A stretch of 64,000 bases of DNA from Halorhabdus rudnickae (GTDB lineage: Archaea > Halobacteriota > Halobacteria > Halobacteriales > Haloarculaceae): contig NZ_CAAHFB010000001.1 of the NCBI RefSeq assembly GCF_900880625.1, positions 682,001 through 746,000 of the forward strand. The letters run 5' to 3'. Of the stretch, positions 5,912-16,670 are shown piece by piece. The translations under genes and the position numbers were made by a program. Under the pieces are notes generated by a model. That model did not search any database. It was given only the letters and a program-made list of their open reading frames with translations, and was not told the DNA's origin. Position 1 is the first letter of the stretch, and each line of letters begins with the position of its first letter.

Positions 5912-7099
5912 ATGAGCTATACGATCGGACTCGTGGGCAAGCCCTCCGTCGGGAAGTCCACGTTTTTCAATGCGGCGACGATGAACGACGTGCCTGAAGG
6001 CGCCTATCCGTTCACGACGATCGATCCGTCGGTGGGTGAAGCCTACGTCCGCGTCGAGTGTGCGGCACCCGAATTCGACCACACCTGTACCCCGAACCAC
6101 GGCTACTGTGAGGATGGCATCCGCTTCGTGCCGACCAAACTGGTCGACGTTGCCGGACTGGTCCCCGGCGCTCACGAAGGGAAGGGGCTCGGGAATCAGT
6201 TCCTCACGGACTTGAACGAAGCTGACGTGCTGGTCCACGTTGTCGATTTCACCGGTGAGACGGATCTCGAAGGGGAACCGACGACGGATCACGACCCACG
6301 CGAGGACATCGACTTCCTGGAGAACGAACTCGACATGTGGTATCTCGACATCTTCGAGAAGGGTATCGAACGGTACCGTTCGGGCTACGATGGGGAGGAC
6401 AGCGATGTCGAGGCCGATCTCGCCGAGCAGCTCTCGGCCTTCGGGATCGGCGAAGACGAGATCAAACAGGTCATCCTCGGCGAGGGCCTCGAACTCGATC
6501 CCGCGACGTGGGACGAAGAAGATCGCGAAGCTCTCGCCTGTGAGATCAGGATGCGAACCAAGCCGATCGTCATCGCCGCCAACAAGATGGACACCGAGGC
6601 CGCCCAAGACAACTGGGAGGCTGTGACGACTGATCCCGACTACGAGCACCTGACGTTCGTTCCCGTCTCCGCTCACGCCGAGAAGGCACTGAAAAACGGC
6701 GACGAGCAAGGCGTGCTGGACTATCGACCCGGCGATGAGGACTTCGAAGTGACGGGCGATCTCTCCGAGGCAAAAGCGGCCGGACTCGAAGAGATCCGTG
6801 AGTTCATCGGAGCCTACGGCGGGACGGGTGTCCAGAACGTCATCGAAACGGCGCTGTTCGACGTGCTCGGTGCTATCGCTGTCTTCCCCGGCGCACGAAA
6901 ACCACAGGACGACGGCACGTTCCTGCAGGACTGTTTCGTGCTGCCGGACGGCTCGACGGCCGAGGACTTCGCGTACTTCCTGCATACGGACATCGGCGAG
7001 GGGTTCCTCCACGCCCACGACGTGCGCTCGGAACGCCAGGTCGGCGCCGAGACAAAACTCGACCATCGTGATGTTGTCGAGATCACGACGACGAACTGA
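5912..7099 (+). CDS. ychF: Redox-regulated ATPase/GTPase YchF (Obg family)
   Basis: A 395-residue Obg/YchF-type P-loop NTPase that associates with ribosomes or translation factors. G1 is GKPSVGKST near residue 9, G3 is DVAGLVPGAHEGKGLGNQF, and G4 is AANKMD. A helical insertion domain lies between about 130 and 220. The C-terminal TGS domain ends GFLHAHDVRSERQVG...VVEITTTN. The CX4-type cysteine pair around CTPNHGYCEDG is typical of the archaeal branch. The TATA-like cgttttagcc lies about 25 nt before the ATG. The gene is convergent with top6A in the inferred ancestral order. Its last ~90 codons are duplicated at 12618-12894. Confidence 0.92.
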   Translation: MSYTIGLVGKPSVGKSTFFNAATMNDVPEGAYPFTTIDPSVGEAYVRVECAAPEFDHTCTPNHGYCEDGIRFVPTKLVDVAGLVPGAHEGKGLGNQFLTDLNEADVLVHVVDFTGETDLEGEPTTDHDPREDIDFLENELDMWYLDIFEKGIERYRSGYDGEDSDVEADLAEQLSAFGIGEDEIKQVILGEGLELDPATWDEEDREALACEIRMRTKPIVIAANKMDTEAAQDNWEAVTTDPDYEHLTFVPVSAHAEKALKNGDEQGVLDYRPGDEDFEVTGDLSEAKAAGLEEIREFIGAYGGTGVQNVIETALFDVLGAIAVFPGARKPQDDGTFLQDCFVLPDGSTAEDFAYFLHTDIGEGFLHAHDVRSERQVGAETKLDHRDVVEITTTN

Positions 7100-7632
7100 C
7101 TCAGTGGAGACGGATTTCTGCACAGAGAACGCGCGGTATAGCACCATACACAGCCGATTTAGGGCGGTGTAGCTGGAATGGGTAGAAACTGCTGGGATGG
7201 ACACTGCTTCAGCAAGCAGTCCAAGCTACAGAACCTCTGTTCAGCATACCACCAGTCGATTGGAGGGGTTATGACGAATTGCTCAATCTCTACAATTTTG
7301 GAAATCAATTTGGGGATTGGTTTGAGTGTTTCCGTCGTGTCTCGAAGAATGTTCATGAGATACGGAAGACATTCTAGAAAAAGCTGCTGCCAATTATGAA
7401 TCTATTCAGCTTGACCACCTCTGGACTATAATGGGAGGTTTAGTTCATTTTTGACTCCAAGGTTTCAACAGAGGGGCCATTTATCTACATTGGACTCTGC
7501 TTCAGCGATAATCGTTCTTGGGATGGCGAATATGTGAGTTGAATCAACCACGGATGATTGTAGTTCCGGACATTCTGACTGTGTCGTCGGGATAAGAATA
7601 AACATTAAGCGTCCGGATGCGGATTTGTTTAT
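7100..7632 (+). other. Gene-poor AT-rich stretch after ychF
   Basis: The first ~115 bp (7100-7215) are similar to the sequence after the duplicated ychF 3' end at 12895-13015, including actcagtggagacgg and gctgggatggaca, so they belong to the old ychF 3' flank. From about 7220 the DNA becomes AT-rich. I see only short overlapping frames without family resemblance, probably debris. A TATA-like aataaacatt around 7594-7604 could serve the gene starting at 7633. Confidence 0.6.
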
Positions 7633-8493
7633 GTGGCCCGACTCCTACCCTATCATCTCGAGGAGGGTAATGGGGTTGTTTTGTCGCTCCAATTTGCAAA
7701 CCCGGACTTGGAAGTTGTTGAACAACGGCTACGGAACGAGCGAGAAGGCTCCTCGCCCGGTATTAACGATTTCTATGCAGAGATCAAGAGCTGCTCTTTC
7801 GATCAGGAGATTCACGCTCTCTATACCGCAAAAGTCCACCCTCGAAGCTTTGACGGATATGAAGAGATCTCTGAAGCGGGCAACGAGGTTCTGATAGACA
7901 CTGTTATCGAAGGCTTCCATCAAATTGAAAAAGAATGTCGGGATAATGGCAACCCACTTCGGTGGTATAAACAGCCAGAGCTTGCTGAAATTGTTGAGGC
8001 AATCAACCAAACTAACTGGCGTCAGCGAATCCCGAATGTCGCTGGCTGCCTCCTTTCGAATCTTATTACAACTCACGGACTTCCAAACGCGAATCACCGA
8101 ACAGCGCTGAGCTTCGTGCAGGTGTACCTGCGTACTTACGCGCCTGAGTTTGAAATTCCGGAAACGGGGATGCCCGGGGAATGGTATGAGTGGGCAGAAG
8201 AGTTTGTCCGAGAGTCAAAGCGACTTCTCACGCTCTCACGGAAAATCTTAGTATTCCGATACCTTGACCAATGGGGCTGCGATGGAGTTATCCGAAAGAA
8301 CGATTCAAAACTGCGCTTTAAGAACTATGACTTGGCTGTGGAAGAGCCCCTTACGTATTTCCGACGCCAGCATAAGGAACTCAGCATGGAGTTCATTTAC
8401 GAGACCCTCGAACGAACAGAGCAAAACTCTCTCATTGGTAAGGAAGACCTGGGACGGAGTGTATTTATCGAGCGACTGAAAAGCAATCAGTAG
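7633..8493 (+). CDS. Fic/Doc-like protein with degenerate catalytic motif
   Basis: A 286-residue protein with a GTG start. Residues 148-158 read HGLPNANHRTA. This aligns one-to-one with the Doc/Fic active-site loop HxFxDANKRTA: the catalytic His, the NAN turn and the Arg are kept, the acidic residue becomes Asn and the Lys becomes His. It is followed by a hydrophobic helix as in Doc. Fic/Doc enzymes transfer AMP or phosphate from nucleotides to proteins such as EF-Tu. Whether this variant is active is unknown. The remaining ~125 residues C-terminal to the loop have no recognisable motif. Codon use and base composition are more AT-rich than ychF, consistent with transfer. No small antitoxin gene is seen immediately upstream. 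Fold assignment is by motif only. Confidence 0.55.
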   Translation: MARLLPYHLEEGNGVVLSLQFANPDLEVVEQRLRNEREGSSPGINDFYAEIKSCSFDQEIHALYTAKVHPRSFDGYEEISEAGNEVLIDTVIEGFHQIEKECRDNGNPLRWYKQPELAEIVEAINQTNWRQRIPNVAGCLLSNLITTHGLPNANHRTALSFVQVYLRTYAPEFEIPETGMPGEWYEWAEEFVRESKRLLTLSRKILVFRYLDQWGCDGVIRKNDSKLRFKNYDLAVEEPLTYFRRQHKELSMEFIYETLERTEQNSLIGKEDLGRSVFIERLKSNQ

Positions 8494-8683
8494 TCCGGTA
8501 GACGCGACATTGACCGTGCGATATGACGGATATCCCGGCTGACTTCCGAGCGGTTCTTCGTACGCTCGTTAACCCGCCGATATACTTGGTCAGCGTCCAT
8601 ATCGATTCACACCTAATCTATGGCCTTAGTGTTGATGATTCTTACGGTGCCATATATCCGGTACTCTGCCGGATATCAACGCG

Positions 8684-9160
8684 TCAGATGACATCACCTC
8701 GTTCCAGTTGATCGACGATAATTTGTAAAGCTTCATAATCTACGTCCTTTTCGGTGACAGTTCGCTTGATGGCGGTTTGAATCCGCTTTTGCTTCGGTTG
8801 ATAAGATGGGGCTCGACGGAAGAACTCACGGAAAGTCGCCGCGTATTCAAGCCACTGAGCATCTTTATCACCAACAAGATTAGCAAAGGCCTCTGCATTG
8901 AACCCAGAAAGAGCATTTGAACTTGCAGATATTTCGTTGAGATTGGAGTAGTAGTCCTCAGCGAGTGGTGGTGAATACGGTCCTCGAAGGTGCATTCCGT
9001 AACGATACCCATGATCAAAGCCGAAGTCTTCAGCGAGGAGAACATACTTTTGCAGCCGGAATCGGTCCTCAAAAGACTCCAAATCGAAAGTACAATTCAG
9101 ATGAGACTCAATAGCATCTAGAAATGCCTTGAGTTCATCGACGTTGGACTGGTTGTTCAT
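8684..9160 (-). CDS. YwgA-like / Panacea-like fold protein
   Basis: A 158-residue acidic protein. The segment FEDRFRLQKYVLLAEDFGFD, followed by YRYGMHLRGPYSPPLAEDYY, resembles YwgA-type proteins and the KLQK-core of the DUF4065/Panacea superfamily, whose members often act as antitoxins. The RLQKYV helix, the hydrophobic LLAE stretch and the GPYSPPLA turn are the recognisable parts. The C-terminal half is helical with no clear motif. It is convergent with the Fic-like gene, 190 bp away, and AT-rich like it. An antitoxin or sensor role is inference only. A TATA-like acctaaatgc lies about 35 nt upstream of the ATG on the minus strand. Confidence 0.6.
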   Translation of the reverse strand: MNNQSNVDELKAFLDAIESHLNCTFDLESFEDRFRLQKYVLLAEDFGFDHGYRYGMHLRGPYSPPLAEDYYSNLNEISASSNALSGFNAEAFANLVGDKDAQWLEYAATFREFFRRAPSYQPKQKRIQTAIKRTVTEKDVDYEALQIIVDQLERGDVI

Positions 9161-9356
9161 GTAGCTAGGTCAGGGTTGAGCATGCATTTAGGTATTGCCT
9201 CTATCTAGCAGCTAGAGAAAAGAGCCGGCTGAACAGCAGACGGCTGTCGCCGGTCACCTTTCAGGTTCCGTCCCACAACGCTGGATTCGACAGCGCGGAT
9301 GCCAAAGCGTACTTATCGGGTGTTCGAATATGTGACTAGTACGCAGTAGCATAGAT

Positions 9357-10691
9357 ATGCGTGTGATAATCGCTGGCGCTGGGCAGGTCGGCCGAAGAGT
9401 TGCAGCCAAACTCGATGGGGCTCACGATGTCGTTGTGATCGATACTGATGCAGACCGGATCGATAGCCTTGGCTACGAACTAGATGTCCTCACGGCTCTC
9501 GGTGACAGTTCGACGATCGAAACACTGGAGGAAGCCGGTATCGCGGACGCTGATCTGCTCATCGCGAGTACAGACAGCGACGAAATCAATATCCTGACGT
9601 GTGAGACGGCGAAAGCACTGAGTGACGTCACGACCGTCGCACGCGTCAGACAACTCAAATATATCGAAACGTGGGATCGTGCAGACGACGTGTTCGGTGT
9701 TGACTTCATGGTCGGGACGAATCTGTTGACTATCGGGGCAGCCGTCGGCGGGACGGGCCTGGAAGCAGCGAACAGCTTCGATGTCTTCGCCGGCGGGACC
9801 GTCCACGTAGCCGAATTCGAGGTCGATCCAGGGGGTTCGCTCGTCGGGCTCACGGTCGAGGAAGCCGACACGTTCGAGGGATTGACCTTCGGCGCTCTCG
9901 TCCGATCGGGAACGACCATCGTTCCGACTGGTTCGACCCAGATCGAAGCAGGCGACGGTATCATCGTCATGGGAAAGCCCGAATCAGTCCATACGCTTGG
10001 CACCCAACTCAGTCAGGAGAAACCAGCCACGCAAAACGTCCTGATTGTCGGTGGGAGTGATATCGGATATCACACTGCGCGACTGCTTGAGGAACGGGGG
10101 CTTCGCCCGCACCTGCTGGAGAGGGACCCTGACCGCGCACGCGAACTGTCCGAACGGCTCTCGGCGACGACTGTCCGCAACACGGACCCGACAACTCGGG
10201 ACTTTCTGGAGACCGAGCGAGCCGCAGACATCGACGTTGTTGTTGCGGCACTCGATCAGGATAGCGAAGCGAACCTCCTTGCAGCGCTCCGGGCAAAACG
10301 GATGGGTGTCGATCGTTCGGTCGCAATCGTCGATCACGGTGACTACGTAGACCTGTTCGAGACGGCCGGTGTTGACGTTGCGGTAAACCCGCGGCGAGCG
10401 ACTGCCGAAGAAATCATCGAATTTGCCCGGGATCAGGATACGCAGAACGTTGCCTTGCTGGAGGACAATCACGCCGAGGTGATCGAAATACGGATCGACA
10501 CGGAGAGTGCCCTCGCAGGGCGTCCGATCGCGGAGGCGATCGCCGATTTCCCACCTGGTGTCGTGATCGGTGCGATCACTCGCCACGGGAGCTTTCTGAG
10601 GCCCCGTGGCGATACGGTCGTCAAACCGGGAGATCATGTCGTCGTTCTCGCTGACAGTGATGGCATCGAAGACGTAATGCAGCGCCTATGA
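9357..10691 (+). CDS. trkA: Trk potassium uptake regulatory subunit TrkA
   Basis: A 444-residue peripheral NAD-binding regulator of the Trk K+ channel. It has two tandem modules, each a Rossmann RCK-N domain plus an RCK-C domain. The first Rossmann loop is VIIAGAGQVGRRVA (residues 2-15), followed by VIDTDADR. The second is VLIVGGSDIGYHTARLL near 223. RCK-C portions are EVDPGGSLVGLTVEEAD and RIDTESALAGRPIAEA, the latter followed by GDHVVVLADSDGIEDV. This is the normal length for the family. TATA-like tacttatc lies near 9308. It is followed by trkH, and the pair would import K+ for salt-in osmoadaptation. Confidence 0.93.
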   Translation: MRVIIAGAGQVGRRVAAKLDGAHDVVVIDTDADRIDSLGYELDVLTALGDSSTIETLEEAGIADADLLIASTDSDEINILTCETAKALSDVTTVARVRQLKYIETWDRADDVFGVDFMVGTNLLTIGAAVGGTGLEAANSFDVFAGGTVHVAEFEVDPGGSLVGLTVEEADTFEGLTFGALVRSGTTIVPTGSTQIEAGDGIIVMGKPESVHTLGTQLSQEKPATQNVLIVGGSDIGYHTARLLEERGLRPHLLERDPDRARELSERLSATTVRNTDPTTRDFLETERAADIDVVVAALDQDSEANLLAALRAKRMGVDRSVAIVDHGDYVDLFETAGVDVAVNPRRATAEEIIEFARDQDTQNVALLEDNHAEVIEIRIDTESALAGRPIAEAIADFPPGVVIGAITRHGSFLRPRGDTVVKPGDHVVVLADSDGIEDVMQRL

Positions 10692-10764
10692 GCGGACCTG
10701 CCTCTCGGTGTGGCCGACTGTCTCCCACTCAACCTGCTCTCAGACAGGATGTGGAGGTGACCTG

Positions 10765-12333
10765 ATGCATCTGAATGTTAACTGGCGACAGAGCTGTGCG
10801 CTCGTCGGGACTGTCCTCAAGTATCTCGCCGTCACGATGCTCATTCCGCTCTTCGTCGCGGTCATCTATGGGAACGACGTGGATGTGTTTCTTGCATCGG
10901 TCGTGATTACTGCTGGACTCGGTGTGTCACTGGAACGGAGTGCCGACGTTGACGACCTCGGAGCGGAGGAGGCGCTCTTGTTCGTGACGCTCGCCTGGGT
11001 CGGCGTGTCCGTCGGTGGGGCCGTGCCATATTTGCTGGAAGGCCTCGGGACGGCATCGACGGTCGGACTCTCCCTCGAATCGCCGGGCGCACTGGTCGCC
11101 TCGATCGTCAACGCTCTGTTCGAATCGACATCAGGATTTACAACGACAGGGGCGACTGTGCTCGGCGATATATCGTTCGAGCGACATTCACACGCCCTGC
11201 TCATGTATCGGCAACTGACACAGTGGCTCGGTGGGATGGGCATCATCGTCCTCATGGTCGCAATCTTGCCCGAACTGGCGGTCAACGGCGCACAGCTGAT
11301 CGACGCAGAGGCGCCGGGCCCGGAACTGAAGAAACTCACCCCACAGATCGCCGAAACGGCACGCATCCTCTGGCTCGTGTACGCCGGATTCACCGCCCTG
11401 TTGATCTGTTTGCTCTACGCGCTCCATCTGCTCGGCGCTGCCCCAGAGATGAATCTGTACAACGCGATCGCGCACGGATTCACGACGCTCCCGACCGGTG
11501 GGTTCTCCCCGCAGGCCAAGAGTATCGCATTCTTCTCGCCGGCCGTACAGTGGCTCGTCATCCCGTTTATCGTCATCGCAGGGACGAACTTCGCGCTCTT
11601 TTATTTCGTTCTCAAGGGGCAGTTCGTCGAGGTGTTCCAGAATCGGGAATTCCAGGGGTACATCGGTGCAATCGTCGGTGTCGCGCTCGTTCTCTGGGCG
11701 CTGTTGTTCAATGGCGCTGCACCCGCGCTCGAACTGGGTGGGGTTACTGGGGGTGTTGTCGAGAATTCACTGCGACAGGCCCTGTTCCAGACCGTGACCC
11801 TGCTCAATTCCACCGGCTTCGCGACGAGTGACTTCGCCCAATGGAACGAAGCGGGCCAGTTCCTCCTCCTGGCAGTGATGTTCATCGGCGGGTCGGCAGG
11901 GTCGACGGGTGGCGGTGTCAAGGTGATCCGCTGGCTGGTCATCTTCAAAGCCGCACGCCGACAGCTCTCGTCGACAGTGTATCCCGATGTCGTGGAGCCA
12001 GTCCGTCTCGGCGGACAGGTCATCGACGAGAAGGTCGTGCGGGGGATCTTCGCATTCACCTTCCTCTATCTGTTCATCTTTGCCGTCTCCGCGGTGGTCA
12101 TCGCGCTCGATTCGGGGCGTGTGGGGCTTGATTTGACGACGATCGAGGCACTCAGTGCGAGTATCGCGACCATCGGGAACATCGGCCCTGGCTTCGGGAT
12201 GCTCGGGCCGTTCGGGAGCTATCTGGAGTTTCCCGAGACGTCGAAACTCCTCATGATCGTGCTGATGTGGCTTGGACGACTCGAAGTGGTTCCAGTGCTC
12301 GTGTTGTTCACTCGCTCGTTCTGGGAGTGGTGA
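10765..12333 (+). CDS. trkH: Trk potassium uptake channel subunit TrkH
   Basis: A 522-residue integral membrane K+ translocating subunit. Four P-loop repeats typical of the SKT superfamily are visible: FESTSGFTTTGATVL, HGFTTLPTGGFSPQA, LNSTGFATSDF and SIATIGNIGPGFGM. GGSAGSTGGGVKVIRW is the conserved TrkH loop, and about ten hydrophobic segments alternate with these. I chose the ATG at 10765 because ggaggtga lies 5 nt upstream (10753-10760). An in-frame alternative 19 codons earlier lacks such a site. It lies 73 bp after trkA in the same direction. Confidence 0.93.
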   Translation: MHLNVNWRQSCALVGTVLKYLAVTMLIPLFVAVIYGNDVDVFLASVVITAGLGVSLERSADVDDLGAEEALLFVTLAWVGVSVGGAVPYLLEGLGTASTVGLSLESPGALVASIVNALFESTSGFTTTGATVLGDISFERHSHALLMYRQLTQWLGGMGIIVLMVAILPELAVNGAQLIDAEAPGPELKKLTPQIAETARILWLVYAGFTALLICLLYALHLLGAAPEMNLYNAIAHGFTTLPTGGFSPQAKSIAFFSPAVQWLVIPFIVIAGTNFALFYFVLKGQFVEVFQNREFQGYIGAIVGVALVLWALLFNGAAPALELGGVTGGVVENSLRQALFQTVTLLNSTGFATSDFAQWNEAGQFLLLAVMFIGGSAGSTGGGVKVIRWLVIFKAARRQLSSTVYPDVVEPVRLGGQVIDEKVVRGIFAFTFLYLFIFAVSAVVIALDSGRVGLDLTTIEALSASIATIGNIGPGFGMLGPFGSYLEFPETSKLLMIVLMWLGRLEVVPVLVLFTRSFWEW

Positions 12334-12345
12334 AACCGTCGCGCT

Positions 12346-12365
12346 CGGTCTGAGGACCGACTCCT
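12346..12365 (+). terminator. Possible terminator after trkH
   Basis: CGGTC-TGAG-GACCG forms a 5-bp stem with a 4-nt loop 13 bp after the trkH stop, followed by pyrimidine-rich actcctttccc. Archaeal termination relies mainly on T-tracts, so this is only suggestive. Confidence 0.3.
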
Positions 12366-12495
12366 TTCCCGCCATCCGAACTGTGTAATGGTCTTCCGAT
12401 AATGCCCGACAAGCGCCCTGTCTTTTCCACATGAGTCTTGACAATCCCTGGACAGACAGGCCAATAGAATCCGTCTAAAACGCGCTCAAGAGCCG

Positions 12496-12617
12496 CTATA
12501 TGATGCCCATCTCGTCGAGTCGCTCGGGCAGATACGTATCAGTCACGGAGTCAAGCCCGTAGGAGGCCAAAGCCTGCTGTTCGGACTCCAGCGCGTTGAT
12601 GTCTGAATCCGCGAGGG
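12496..12617 (-). pseudogene. 3' fragment of top6A (topoisomerase VI subunit A)
   Basis: A diverged copy of the last ~65 codons of top6A, including the stop codon (CTA on plus at 12496-12498) and about 60 bp of 3' flank (from about 12434, matching 15495 onward). Relative to the intact gene it lacks 78 bp, removed exactly between two TTCGGA repeats (15642-15647 and 15720-15725). This keeps the frame but deletes 26 codons. The copy ends abruptly at cggtcggcag, where it joins the ychF fragment. It cannot make a functional protein. Confidence 0.9.
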
Positions 12618-12894
12618 GAACGGTCGGCAGAAAATCATCGAAACCGCGCTGTTCGACGTGCTGGACGCGATTTCCGTCTTCCCCGGGTCCGGCGCTCCAA
12701 AGGACGACGGCACCTTCCTGCAGGACTGTTTCGTCCTCCCCGACGGCTCAACGGCCGAGGACTTCGCGTACTGCCTGCATACGGACATCGGCGAGGGGTT
12801 CCTCCACGCCCACGACGCCCGTTCGGAACGCCAGGTCGGCGCGGAGACGGAACTCGATCATTGTGATGTTGTCGAGATCACGACGGCGAACTGA
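12618..12894 (+). pseudogene. 3' fragment of ychF
   Basis: A diverged copy of the C-terminal ~90 codons of ychF (TGS domain). It encodes [19 protein letters not shown] and GEGFLHAHDARSERQVGAET, ending at a TGA at 12892-12894. Protein identity to the intact gene is high (roughly 85% by eye), with changes such as C for F and A for V. The homology continues about 120 bp past the stop. The 5' edge is fused to the top6A fragment around a shared CAG. Confidence 0.92.
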
Positions 12895-13096
12895 CTCAGT
12901 GGAGACGGGTTTCTGCATATAGGAAGCGTGGGATAGAACCATTTACGGCCAATTTCGACGATGCAACTAGGGAGGGGAGAAACGGCTGGGATGGACATAG
13001 CTCTAGAAAGCAGTGTAAGAGACAGCGCATGGGTTCACCAGTATGCACCCATCTTTCTTCGTTGAACGGCTGAACTAGCTGTTAGGCAGCAGCCAC

Positions 13097-13831
13097 TTAG
13101 TTACTATCTTCACTGGAGTATGGAGTGAAAACTGGAAGGGGTCGATCAGGGTCGTTACGCTCTATGTTGGATAGGAATTGCTGAGTTTTGTTGACCAAGT
13201 CCGCTCTTGTTTCGAATTCGATTGTGTCAATCTTGAAAGTAGACGGAATTTCATCGATACTGGCGCTACTGAACCCTTCAGTCTTGAAAATCCGAAATCG
13301 CTCCCGGGGCTTGCGAACGGGTTCTTGATTCCCTCTTCGGAGGTGAAATTCACCAAGTATGGTCCCGACCTCTGCACCAACACCTGTCGTAAGACCAGCA
13401 TCTGAAAAGACGAACACTACAGCATCACTCACTGCCGCGAAGGCAACCGATTGATCAAGGACAGACATCGCTTCCTCATCGTCACTTGCTTCTGCGTCAG
13501 TTGGGATGGTAACGTCTGTCGCAAGAAAAGCATGTACTCCGAATCGGTCGCGATAGGCCTGGCAGAGATCTTCGAGAGCTAATTTGAAGCTTCCACGCTC
13601 ATCAGCAGTGATGTGACTCTCAGGTTCGAACAAGGGGTCGTTGATGAACGGCGATTGAAGCTGGTCTCCGTCTGAATAGGCGTACGTGGCATCAAATGCG
13701 GTGTACGGTCCCATCACGAATACGTAGAAATCATCCTCAAGTTTCGATGAGTCTGGTTGGGGGACATCCTGTTGTATCCGTGAAAAAACAGACTCACTTT
13801 CAAACGTGAATCCGTAATTCCGGCTATTCAT
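13097..13831 (-). CDS. Nucleoside deoxyribosyltransferase-like protein (DUF7509-like)
   Basis: A 244-residue acidic protein from the ATG at 13831, with a GTG alternative five codons upstream. Features recall Rossmann-like nucleoside deoxyribosyltransferase/TIR-related folds: a first strand with YVFVMGPYTAFDA, a central HAFLATDVTIP strand, and SDAVVFVFSDAGLTTGVGAE followed by VGTIL. There the Glu of GAEVG sits where the catalytic Glu of deoxyribosyltransferases lies. I believe this corresponds to haloarchaeal DUF7509, from memory. The likely chemistry is N-glycosidic cleavage or transfer on a nucleotide, which is inference. It is divergent from the winged-helix regulator across a palindrome-rich spacer. 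A minus-strand TATA (acttatac, 13858-13865) lies about 30 nt before the ATG, supporting a leaderless start. The gene is more AT-rich than the core. Confidence 0.55.
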   Translation of the reverse strand: MNSRNYGFTFESESVFSRIQQDVPQPDSSKLEDDFYVFVMGPYTAFDATYAYSDGDQLQSPFINDPLFEPESHITADERGSFKLALEDLCQAYRDRFGVHAFLATDVTIPTDAEASDDEEAMSVLDQSVAFAAVSDAVVFVFSDAGLTTGVGAEVGTILGEFHLRRGNQEPVRKPRERFRIFKTEGFSSASIDEIPSTFKIDTIEFETRADLVNKTQQFLSNIERNDPDRPLPVFTPYSSEDSN

Positions 13832-13855
13832 TGTCACTGCGTTCACCCGGAAAAC

Positions 13856-13944
13856 CCGTATAAGTGTTGTTTCGACGTAAAGGTAAGTTAGTTTAGTTAA
13901 TAACCGTTAACCTAATTAGGGAAGACAACGTACATCAGACTGTG
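13856..13944. promoter_or_regulatory. Divergent promoter/operator region with nested palindromes
   Basis: This 100-bp AT-rich spacer separates two diverging genes. It contains the perfect 10-bp palindrome CCTAATTAGG (13911-13920), GTTAAC (13906-13911), the near-palindrome GTTAATAAC (13896-13904) and repeated gtta/ttag units, plus TATA-like elements for both directions. This is the pattern expected of an operator for a dimeric winged-helix protein such as the one starting at 13945. Binding itself is inferred. Confidence 0.5.
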
Positions 13945-14511
13945 ATGACAGGGACCCTAGAGCAAAAACTTTTCACCGAACTGGATGAGGGAAATGTAAT
14001 TCAATACGTCGAGCAGCGACTTTTCGGTGAGAAAATCGATTCTCTAACCCCACATATTGAGCGGAAAAAGGCACTCGCGGAACCGACACGATATAGTATC
14101 GTATACTTGCTGTACGAATACGGAGAGATATCCAGGAAACGTCTCGCCGCAGAAACCGGCCGCGACAGTAATGACTTACAGCACCATCTCAACGACCTCC
14201 TTGACACGAACCTGATCGCAGAGATTCCGGCTCCAGAGGACGCTGATGGGCGACAAACGTACTACCGTATCACGACCCTTGGGAAGCAAGAAATTGCCAG
14301 TGATATCGAGCATATCGTTGGAGGCCTCGCTCACGAAAACCGGTTTAGGGCTCTAGGAGACCCAGAGTTGGTTGATGAGCGGTCTGACAGCGGGGATAGA
14401 AGACGAGCACTCGTGGCAGCTACCGAGGAGGGAGTGGAGGAACTGGATAATCGCCGTAGAGACCTCCGGTCCCGGTGGAAAGATTTCCAACAAGTGGCCA
14501 GTCAGGAGTGA
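13945..14511 (+). CDS. Winged helix-turn-helix transcriptional regulator
   Basis: A 188-residue regulator. The DNA-binding domain spans about residues 40-110: KKALAEPTRYSIVYLLYEYG, ISRKRLAAETGRDSNDLQHH (recognition helix) and LNDLLDTNLI, with the wing around DGRQTYYRITTLGKQEI. This is the ArsR-like haloarchaeal arrangement. The C-terminal ~70 residues are charged and probably helical. The ATG at 13945 is preferred over the GTG immediately upstream. The stop lies 9 bp before the ATG of the HAD gene, so the two are co-transcribed. Autoregulation through the palindromes upstream is likely but unproven. Confidence 0.8.
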   Translation: MTGTLEQKLFTELDEGNVIQYVEQRLFGEKIDSLTPHIERKKALAEPTRYSIVYLLYEYGEISRKRLAAETGRDSNDLQHHLNDLLDTNLIAEIPAPEDADGRQTYYRITTLGKQEIASDIEHIVGGLAHENRFRALGDPELVDERSDSGDRRRALVAATEEGVEELDNRRRDLRSRWKDFQQVASQE

Positions 14512-14520
14512 TTGAAACGC

Positions 14521-15384
14521 ATGACTACGAATATCGGCTTGATATTCGATTTTGACGATACACTTGCTCCAGACTCAACTACGCAACTACTGAAAGAATA
14601 CGGGGTTGATCCAGAAGAATTCTGGTTTTCAGAATTTCAATCGCGTGTGAGGGAAGGATACGACCCAACTGTCGCGTATCTATCCTTATTGGTCGATAAG
14701 GTCGGCGATGACCAGCCGTTTGGAGAACTGACTATTGAGGACCTCGAAGCGTTTGGTGCGGATATATCTAAGACACTCTATTCGGGGATTCCTCGACTCT
14801 TTGACGACATCGATTCCATTGCAGACGAATACGAGGAGGTCACTATTGACTACTATATCCTCTCAGAGGGACTCGAACCGATAATCCAAGGTACTGAGAT
14901 CGCGGATCGATGCGAGGCAGTGTATGCCTCTCAGCTAGATGCTAATTCTGAAGGCATCATTCAACGCATCCAACGACCAATATCGTTCACTGATAAGACG
15001 CGGTATCTCTACGAAATCAATAAAGGAATCACTCCTGAAGATGCCAAAGATAATCCGTACGAAGTCAATACCCTCGTAGATCCTGAGGAGCGACGGGTCC
15101 CGTTTGAGAACATGATATATATTGGCGATGGAATTACCGATATTCCGTGCTTCTCGTTGGTAAAGGATCGTGGAGGTCGCGTCTTTGGCGTAATTAACAG
15201 CGATGGCGAAGGTGAGGAAGGATCAGCGAAACAACGTGCTATCAGAGATATTGGATCACCGAGGAGAGCCGGGAATCTGAACGATCCGATGTATGGCGAA
15301 AGTGGTCGATTGGGTTCACTACTCCGGTTGACTATCGAAGGGATATGTACTGATCGGACGATCGATGAACTTGAGGCTCTCTGA
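14521..15384 (+). CDS. HAD superfamily hydrolase
   Basis: A 287-residue HAD phosphatase. Motif I is LIFDFDDTLAPD (nucleophile and acid/base Asp at about residues 11 and 13). Motif II is the Ser of YYILSEG, motif III a Lys around FTDKTRYLY, and motif IV IGDGITDIPCF. A long helical cap follows motif I. Catalytic residues are intact, so the enzyme should be active on a small phosphorylated molecule, but the substrate cannot be told. It is preferred from the ATG at 14521, 9 bp after the regulator stop; a TTG three codons earlier is also possible. In context with the deoxyribosyltransferase-like gene, it could act on nucleotides. Confidence 0.82.
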   Translation: MTTNIGLIFDFDDTLAPDSTTQLLKEYGVDPEEFWFSEFQSRVREGYDPTVAYLSLLVDKVGDDQPFGELTIEDLEAFGADISKTLYSGIPRLFDDIDSIADEYEEVTIDYYILSEGLEPIIQGTEIADRCEAVYASQLDANSEGIIQRIQRPISFTDKTRYLYEINKGITPEDAKDNPYEVNTLVDPEERRVPFENMIYIGDGITDIPCFSLVKDRGGRVFGVINSDGEGEEGSAKQRAIRDIGSPRRAGNLNDPMYGESGRLGSLLRLTIEGICTDRTIDELEAL

Positions 15385-15557: not shown

Positions 15558-16670
15558 CTATATAATGCCCATCTCGTCGAGTCGCTCGGGCAGATACGTG
15601 TCGGTCACGAAGTCCAAGCCATACGAAGCCAGGGCCTGCTGTTCGGATTTCTTCTCGATGTCGAGCTGGAGTTCGATCTGTTCCTCCCAGTAGTCGGTCT
15701 GGAAGCGCGGGTCCTCGAGTTCGGACTCCAGGGCGTTGATGTCCGAGTCCGCGAGTGGATCGGTCGGCAGGTCGTACTCGACGATGTCCTCGGGCTGGAC
15801 GCCGATGAACTGCGCTTCGGGCGTCGCGAGGTATTTCGAGAGGTGGGCCGACTTGATCGATCCATACGCAACGGAGCCGTAGATTCGATACGACCAGGGG
15901 TCACCGTCAGTGAACACCGTCACCGGCAAGTCGAGTTCGTCGTGCAGTCGCTTGGTCAGCCGCCGGGTCGCACGGGCGGGCTGGCCGCCCAGGTGGACGA
16001 CGATGGCGTCGTGCTCGTCGTCGAATCCGTTCTCGACGAGCCGATCGCGCATCCCGCCGGTCTCGACACAGAGGACGAACTCCGCATCGTTGTCCAGAAA
16101 CTCGATGGTGTCTGGGTCGTTGGGGATCTGGTAGCCGCCCTGCCCGACATCGTGCTGGCAGTGGATCTCTCTGTCCCCACGGTTGGTCTGCTCGCGGAGG
16201 CGCAACGGCCCCATCACCTTCGCGCCGGATTCCTCGGGGCGCATGTGGAATTCCTCGCGACGCACGTCTGAGACGATCTCTAAGTCCTCGATGAGTTGAT
16301 TTGACTCGTCTTGGCTGTTGAACTGGGCCTCGTCCAGGTCCCAGGACTCGCTGAGGTAGTACAGTTCACGCAACGTCGAGGAACGGTCTTCTTCGAGCTG
16401 ATTGGCGAGGAAATCGATCGAATAGATGACCTTCAGGAGTTTCTGGGCACCCCGGACGCTGTTGGCCGAGCGGGTACTCTTCCGATCGCCGTAGACCCAG
16501 ACTTTCTGTTCGGGATCGTACTCGATGTTGCTCTTCGTCCGCGTGGGGACATCCATGTGTGGGACGTCGCCCTGGTCGAATTGGTCGTAGAACTGCGCCG
16601 CCAGCGCGAGCAACCGCTCACGTGCGTCCCCTTCTGTCGCCGCTCCCGTCTCGTCTGTGTCAGTACTCAT
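15558..16670 (-). CDS. top6A: DNA topoisomerase VI subunit A
   Basis: The 370-residue Spo11-like catalytic subunit of the type IIB topoisomerase, which relaxes and decatenates DNA. The winged-helix CAP domain holds the catalytic Tyr within [11 protein letters not shown] (Tyr 104/105). The Toprim domain shows [12 protein letters not shown] and the metal-binding [20 protein letters not shown]. The C-terminus is [11 protein letters not shown] with a TAG stop. It overlaps the end of top6B by 4 bp (ATGA), so the subunits are translationally coupled. Its 3' end has been partly duplicated at 12496. Confidence 0.96.

Follow-up and report, generated by a model that had tools for sequence, protein, structure and literature searches.

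The DNA analysed here, termed the window, is a stretch of 64,000 nucleotides from Halorhabdus rudnickae. Between its core genes ychF and top6A lies a group of three genes, referred to below as the trio. A gene for a DUF7509 protein is divergent from two genes that encode a winged-helix regulator and a HAD phosphatase. The features of the locus are as follows.

5912..7099, plus strand: ychF (OBG-type GTPase), named from sequence; core gene, left border of the hotspot
12413..13025, no strand: scar, formed by the fused copies of two 3′ ends (top6A and ychF); left-hand boundary of the trio island
13097..13831, minus strand: DUF7509 protein gene, 244 aa; PF24349 E 4.2e-43, weak PF05014 match (0.014); putative N-glycosidic-bond enzyme
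13832..13944, no strand: shared intergenic region between the divergent genes, which probably contains both promoters
13896..13916, plus strand: putative operator, GTTAATAACCGTTAACCTAAT; dyad GTTAAY-N4-GTTAAC, conserved in 7/7 trio loci, weaker in three
13945..14511, plus strand: winged-helix (ArsR/HTH_20-like) regulator, 188 aa
14521..15384, plus strand: HAD phosphatase, 287 aa; phosphoserine phosphatase/cytosolic 5′-nucleotidase III fold; PADLOC PDC-S34 1.2e-58
15558..16670, minus strand: top6A (topoisomerase VI subunit A); core gene that bounds the hotspot on the right

Gene arrangement and insertion site

Comparison with relatives points to ATG codons at 13831, 13945 and 14521 as the likely starts of the three genes. 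The regulator and HAD genes are separated by 9 nt, and this gap has the same length in two relatives. When compared with two relatives, all three genes show differences of 0.53–0.64 at third codon positions and of 0.08–0.18 at second positions. Because differences at the third position far exceed those at the second, all three open reading frames are considered to be protein genes under purifying selection. A first-pass annotation of the window had described these open reading frames, with the DUF7509 gene divergent from the other two, and had given the DUF7509 protein a length of 244 aa; both points are correct.

The island has a GC content of 0.48, compared with 0.59 for the window. In four of six congeners (G140, G079, G089 and G050; loci L275, L277, L278 and L279), ychF and top6A converge directly on each other with ∼28–45 bp between them, while in the window they are separated by 8,458 bp. 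The low GC content and the four empty sites bear out the earlier placement of the trio in a hotspot island. The inserted DNA consists of two islands in tandem. The first, at ∼7100–12412, carries trkA and trkH; the second is the trio island, which extends from the scar to ∼15473. Within the scar the two gene-end copies are joined through an 11-base shared stretch, ACGGTCGGCAG, and are 83–87% alike to the intact genes. No integrase was seen at the ychF–top6A site. The structure is compatible with repeated insertion at one hotspot through recombination within the core genes on either side, or else with a tandem duplication and subsequent exchange. The first island also has two low-GC genes, one at 7633–8493 that has no Pfam or PADLOC match, and one at 8684–9160 with none above cut-off.

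The trio and the parent pair in haloarchaea

The HAD gene is rare in haloarchaea. A profile search with the PDC-S34 model finds it in 5 of 391 haloarchaeal genomes, and overlapping family-level searches, one of 170 and one of 125 genomes, add two more carriers. In all seven genomes, which represent three families, the DUF7509, regulator and HAD genes are adjacent and in an identical divergent order. The carriers are the window genome (G000), G074 (plasmid pCBA1230-01 of Halolamina sp. CBA1230), G174, G271, G345, G534 and G558; an eighth record, a Haladaptatus plasmid, has a HAD fragment only. The pairwise identities of the three trio proteins correlate, with r 0.72–0.83 over 21 pairs that are mutually non-independent. 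The first description of the locus had made its module depend on conserved neighbours, and the genome-neighbourhood survey found the trio kept in every HAD carrier. The trio is conserved beyond chance and is a fixed module. This three-gene module is real, moves horizontally and is undescribed in the literature searched. A search of viral contigs and phage records revealed no relatives. On the Halolamina plasmid, the trio (L198) is near genes for an ADP-ribosylglycohydrolase, a HEAT-repeat protein and TnpB.

DUF7509 itself is found in 213 of the 391 haloarchaeal genomes. In a phylum-wide sample of 120 genomes there are five carriers, all belonging to the order of the window genome. A regulator homologue is divergent to DUF7509 in 30/30 best-scoring loci, and among 20 sampled loci of the wider core subfamily, both DUF7509 and the divergent winged-helix protein are present in every one. 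No other gene cluster is common to four or more of these 20 loci within ∼8 kb, except for shadow open reading frames of the same two genes. Since DUF7509 is accompanied by the regulator in all of these loci and no further neighbour is shared, the pair is a self-contained unit in changing surroundings. The trio appears to be a rarer derivative that grew from this parent pair, and the pair presumably works without a HAD in most haloarchaea that carry DUF7509 and the regulator. A 490-aa gene that follows the regulator in G104 was considered as a substitute for the third gene and was rejected; it encodes an ATP-dependent DNA ligase and occurs once.

The trio intergenic region contains the dyad GTTAA[C/T]-N4-GTTAACCTAAT, which is built from a pair of GTTAAC half-sites. 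All seven trio loci have it, with weaker half-sites in G345, G534 and G558; in the 3.36 Mb window genome it is unique at ≤3 mismatches (G000:C1:695896-695916). The dyad is putatively the operator of the winged-helix regulator. Regulators of the trio have a C-terminal extension of ∼45 residues that is lacking in those of the pair, and the GTTAAC dyad is absent from the intergenic regions of core pairs. By eye, eight core pairs (e.g. L201–L208) from several families share an intergenic stretch near GGCTTGA[C/G]AA..CTAAG, which is unlike the trio dyad and is likely to be a subfamily-specific operator or promoter element.

A self-contained pair that moves as a unit, with a dyad confined to the shared intergenic region, is reminiscent of toxin-antitoxin modules. 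DUF7509 would then be a toxic N-glycosidase kept in check transcriptionally by the winged-helix protein, and in the trio the HAD would detoxify the product. However, the DUF7509 and regulator genes point away from each other in every locus examined and do not form one operon, and the pair regulator is a plain winged helix in which no toxin-neutralising domain is visible. A toxin-antitoxin role is regarded as improbable.

The DUF7509 protein and the HAD phosphatase

The DUF7509 protein of the window matches PF24349 (DUF7509) with 147.7 bits, against a curated cut-off of 27. It also shows a match to PF05014, the nucleoside 2-deoxyribosyltransferase (NDT) family, which includes DNPH1/RCL-type dNMP hydrolases. 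This match, at 16 bits (E 0.014), is below the curated cut-off of 28.8, and 3 of 19 DUF7509 members match PF05014 at all. A literature search found no paper on DUF7509. Among 33 non-redundant members, the motifs GPY (46–48) and GVGxExG (155–161, with Glu159) are nearly or fully invariant; the first-pass annotation had picked out a GPY...GAEVG pattern in the window protein. Residue numbering counts from GTG 13846. Residues invariant in 33/33 members are MGPY (45–48), F51, D111, Q132, S133, G155, G157, E159, G161, R183 and S194.

The motifs resemble those of NDTs in that a GP-aromatic motif and a strand are followed, in the same order, by G-x-x-x-E-x-G. The archaeal deoxyribosyltransferases used for comparison read YLAGPLF... 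and ...DSGTAWEIGYA, and profile alignments bring the Glu motifs into register, with E159 falling on the Glu of the second stretch. In known deoxyribosyltransferases, the Glu of that motif is the catalytic residue. DUF7509 proteins differ from PF05014 NDTs in being ∼244 aa instead of ∼150 aa in length, with a longer stretch between the motifs, in being haloarchaea-specific in the sample and in being paired with a winged-helix gene. The sequence case for the flavodoxin-like NDT fold is weak. The best profile-profile score is 26, for one template; the template used for the shuffle control scores 20, which is at the upper edge of the shuffles (95th percentile 18, maximum 22). In a decoy set, five of the 18 top matches to the NDT profile were DUF7509 proteins, which make up 28 of the 1641 members, and those five are mutually related. 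A PDB sequence search with the DUF7509 protein gave no match, and a single-sequence AF2 prediction, made with no alignment, has a pLDDT of 33, too low for a reliable structure. The DUF7509 protein is likely to be an N-glycosidic enzyme. The earlier suggestion of a deoxyribosyltransferase-like protein holds with respect to motif order and the invariant Glu, but not with respect to the Pfam match, whose E of 0.014 is below cut-off. For the suggested TIR relationship no sequence support was found: the protein matches no TIR model in Pfam, PADLOC or NCBIfam, but TIR domains diverge widely in sequence.

The conserved residues also bear on whether the DUF7509 protein is an enzyme at all. It might instead be a non-catalytic sensor, binding a nucleotide and exerting control over the regulator. 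DUF7509 and the regulator pair strictly one to one in 20/20 core loci, which would be in keeping with such a role, as would a change of SDA to SNA beside the motif in the core subfamily. However, the invariance of Glu159, GPY, Asp111 and Gln132-Ser133 in 33/33 members exceeds what a mere binding pocket would be expected to need, and a purely sensory protein is considered unlikely.

The HAD protein of the window is matched over its full length by PDC-S34 (PDLC05002, 196.8 bits, residues 5–287). Its active-site residues D13, D15, T17, S118, K162, D206 and D210 are intact and are invariant among 40 relatives. It had been annotated as an intact HAD phosphatase, and all catalytic motifs are indeed kept. 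An AF2 model built with 40 sequences has a pLDDT of 92. The model resembles phosphoserine phosphatase SerB (Z 17.8, rmsd 2.7, 201 residues) and cytosolic 5′-nucleotidase III (Foldseek rank 1, E 1.2e-8; Z 14.2). Together, model and motifs display the HAD superfamily features DxDxT, S/T, K, D-x3-D and a Rossmannoid fold with a C1 cap. The fold and all four motifs are thus those of HAD-I phosphatases of the phosphoserine phosphatase/cytosolic 5′-nucleotidase III type, but sequence identity to these is ∼15–20%. Matches to TIGR01488 (HAD-IB; 27.1 bits, cut-off 45) and PF12710 (24, cut-off 27) are both below threshold, and a PDB sequence search gave only chance-level or weak phosphatase matches. Not all trio HADs have a complete active site. 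The nucleophile Asp is replaced by Gly in G534, where FDFDDT reads FGFDDV (L237 9052–9909) and the trio layout is retained, and in G174 and G345 Asn takes the place of the first motif IV Asp.

The HAD family is broad in bacteria, with 128 relatives among pattern matches. In the loci examined, bacterial relatives are mostly found beside ordinary genes, and for several of them these read as muropeptide ligase, KdsA and YbeY. On three alphaproteobacterial plasmids (L193, L194 and L195), a related HAD is inside a type I restriction operon, twice next to Shedu. These operons, of the order S-M-RhuM-S-[Shedu]-HAD-HsdR-SprT, resemble the trio in having a HAD of the same family (34–37% identity) in an anti-phage locus, but DUF7509 and the divergent winged-helix gene are absent among their annotated neighbours. 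The idea that all HADs derive from BREX or restriction-modification operons was rejected, as such loci account for only a minority of relatives.

Possible functions

Perhaps the trio is a horizontally moving, autoregulated nucleotide-processing cassette, possibly with an anti-viral role. This is the preferred reading, adopted tentatively and at somewhat less than even confidence. In the proposed working, a dimer of the winged-helix protein would bind the dyad and repress both promoters, and a trigger, either a metabolite or an infection signal, would release the repressor. With Glu159 as nucleophile, the DUF7509 enzyme might then cleave the N-glycosidic bond of a nucleoside, a nucleotide or an NAD-type compound, and the HAD might take phosphate off the same substrate or the product. 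The most likely benefit would be to limit viruses or plasmids through an altered nucleotide pool. The trio may have gained the HAD together with the C-terminal extension of the regulator. In favour of this reading are the complete trio in 7/7 HAD carriers, the correlated protein identities, the unique dyad, the divergent parent pair, the invariant DUF7509 residues, the HAD fold and active site, the BREX and helicase-nuclease contexts and the hotspot with its empty sites. Against it are the statistical weakness of the NDT relationship, the unenriched flanks of the parent pair and the lost nucleophile Asp in the G534 HAD.

Two trio loci have a defence context. In G271 a BREX locus that also has brxC and brxL encloses the trio between its pglX and pglZ genes, and in G558 two genes precede the HAD gene on the same strand, one for a UvrD helicase-nuclease and the other for a further PD-(D/E)XK protein. 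A partial scan of the remaining trio loci showed no recognisable defence gene. PDC-S34 is itself a published PADLOC phage-defence candidate (PDLC05000-05002), to which the HAD has a whole-length match (1.2e-58). PADLOC lists it as a single-gene candidate, whereas in every haloarchaeal carrier found it forms the third member of the trio; a literature search found no paper on PDC-S34. PADLOC PDC families were found through their embedding in defence systems (PMC12988326; PMC10855318). A defence role of the trio, in line with the immune or stress system first proposed for it, is plausible, and the case, with few loci behind it, is suggestive only. The trio is a good candidate for a new defence or stress module.

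For the parent pair, enrichment in defence islands was rejected by comparison with matched control regions. Within 4 kb of 20 parent pairs, two PADLOC families were matched among 75 proteins and in the control regions 30 families among 104 proteins, counts in which several families can match one protein. Because two families compare with 30 in the controls, there is no enrichment of defence genes around the pair.

This raises the question of whether the genes serve metabolism. The DUF7509 enzyme and the HAD could recycle damaged or scarce nucleosides, with the winged-helix protein sensing a nucleoside and derepressing the genes; mobility would then reflect niche adaptation and not immunity. 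The unenriched flanks of the pair and the ordinary neighbours (muropeptide ligase, KdsA, YbeY) of several bacterial HAD relatives are consistent with this, as is the gene arrangement: a regulator gene placed divergently to an enzyme gene is typical of catabolic functions that respond to a ligand. However, the patchy distribution, changing flanks, low-GC hotspot insertion and BREX embedding are unusual for housekeeping genes, and a salvage function is considered somewhat unlikely.

A mobile nucleotide-processing cassette remains the preferred reading. A more specific form of it is a haloarchaeal immune system in which DUF7509, as a new glycosidase family silenced by its own regulator, would destroy or remodel a nucleotide pool once infection occurs; the trio form would include a dedicated phosphatase. 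This version is doubtful and on balance unlikely. If it were true, a role would be given to an enzyme family that so far has none assigned and that over half of the sampled haloarchaea carry. Through the trio, PDC-S34, published as a single-gene defence candidate, acquires two fixed partners, and the haloarchaeal phosphatase should be tested with these partners and not alone. As the pair is conserved without another shared neighbour, its role is testable in Haloferax volcanii, where a DUF7509 gene is present.

Further copies of these genes were observed. The window genome has a second DUF7509 gene fragment (profile positions 143–205) on a 149-kb contig (L002, G000:C2:89331-89519). The same genome carries a core-type winged-helix homologue (G000:C1:1513549-1513866) with no DUF7509 match reported beside it, possibly a solo regulator. 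In the congener G140 (L014), a DUF7509 gene has an internal TAG and is a decaying copy.
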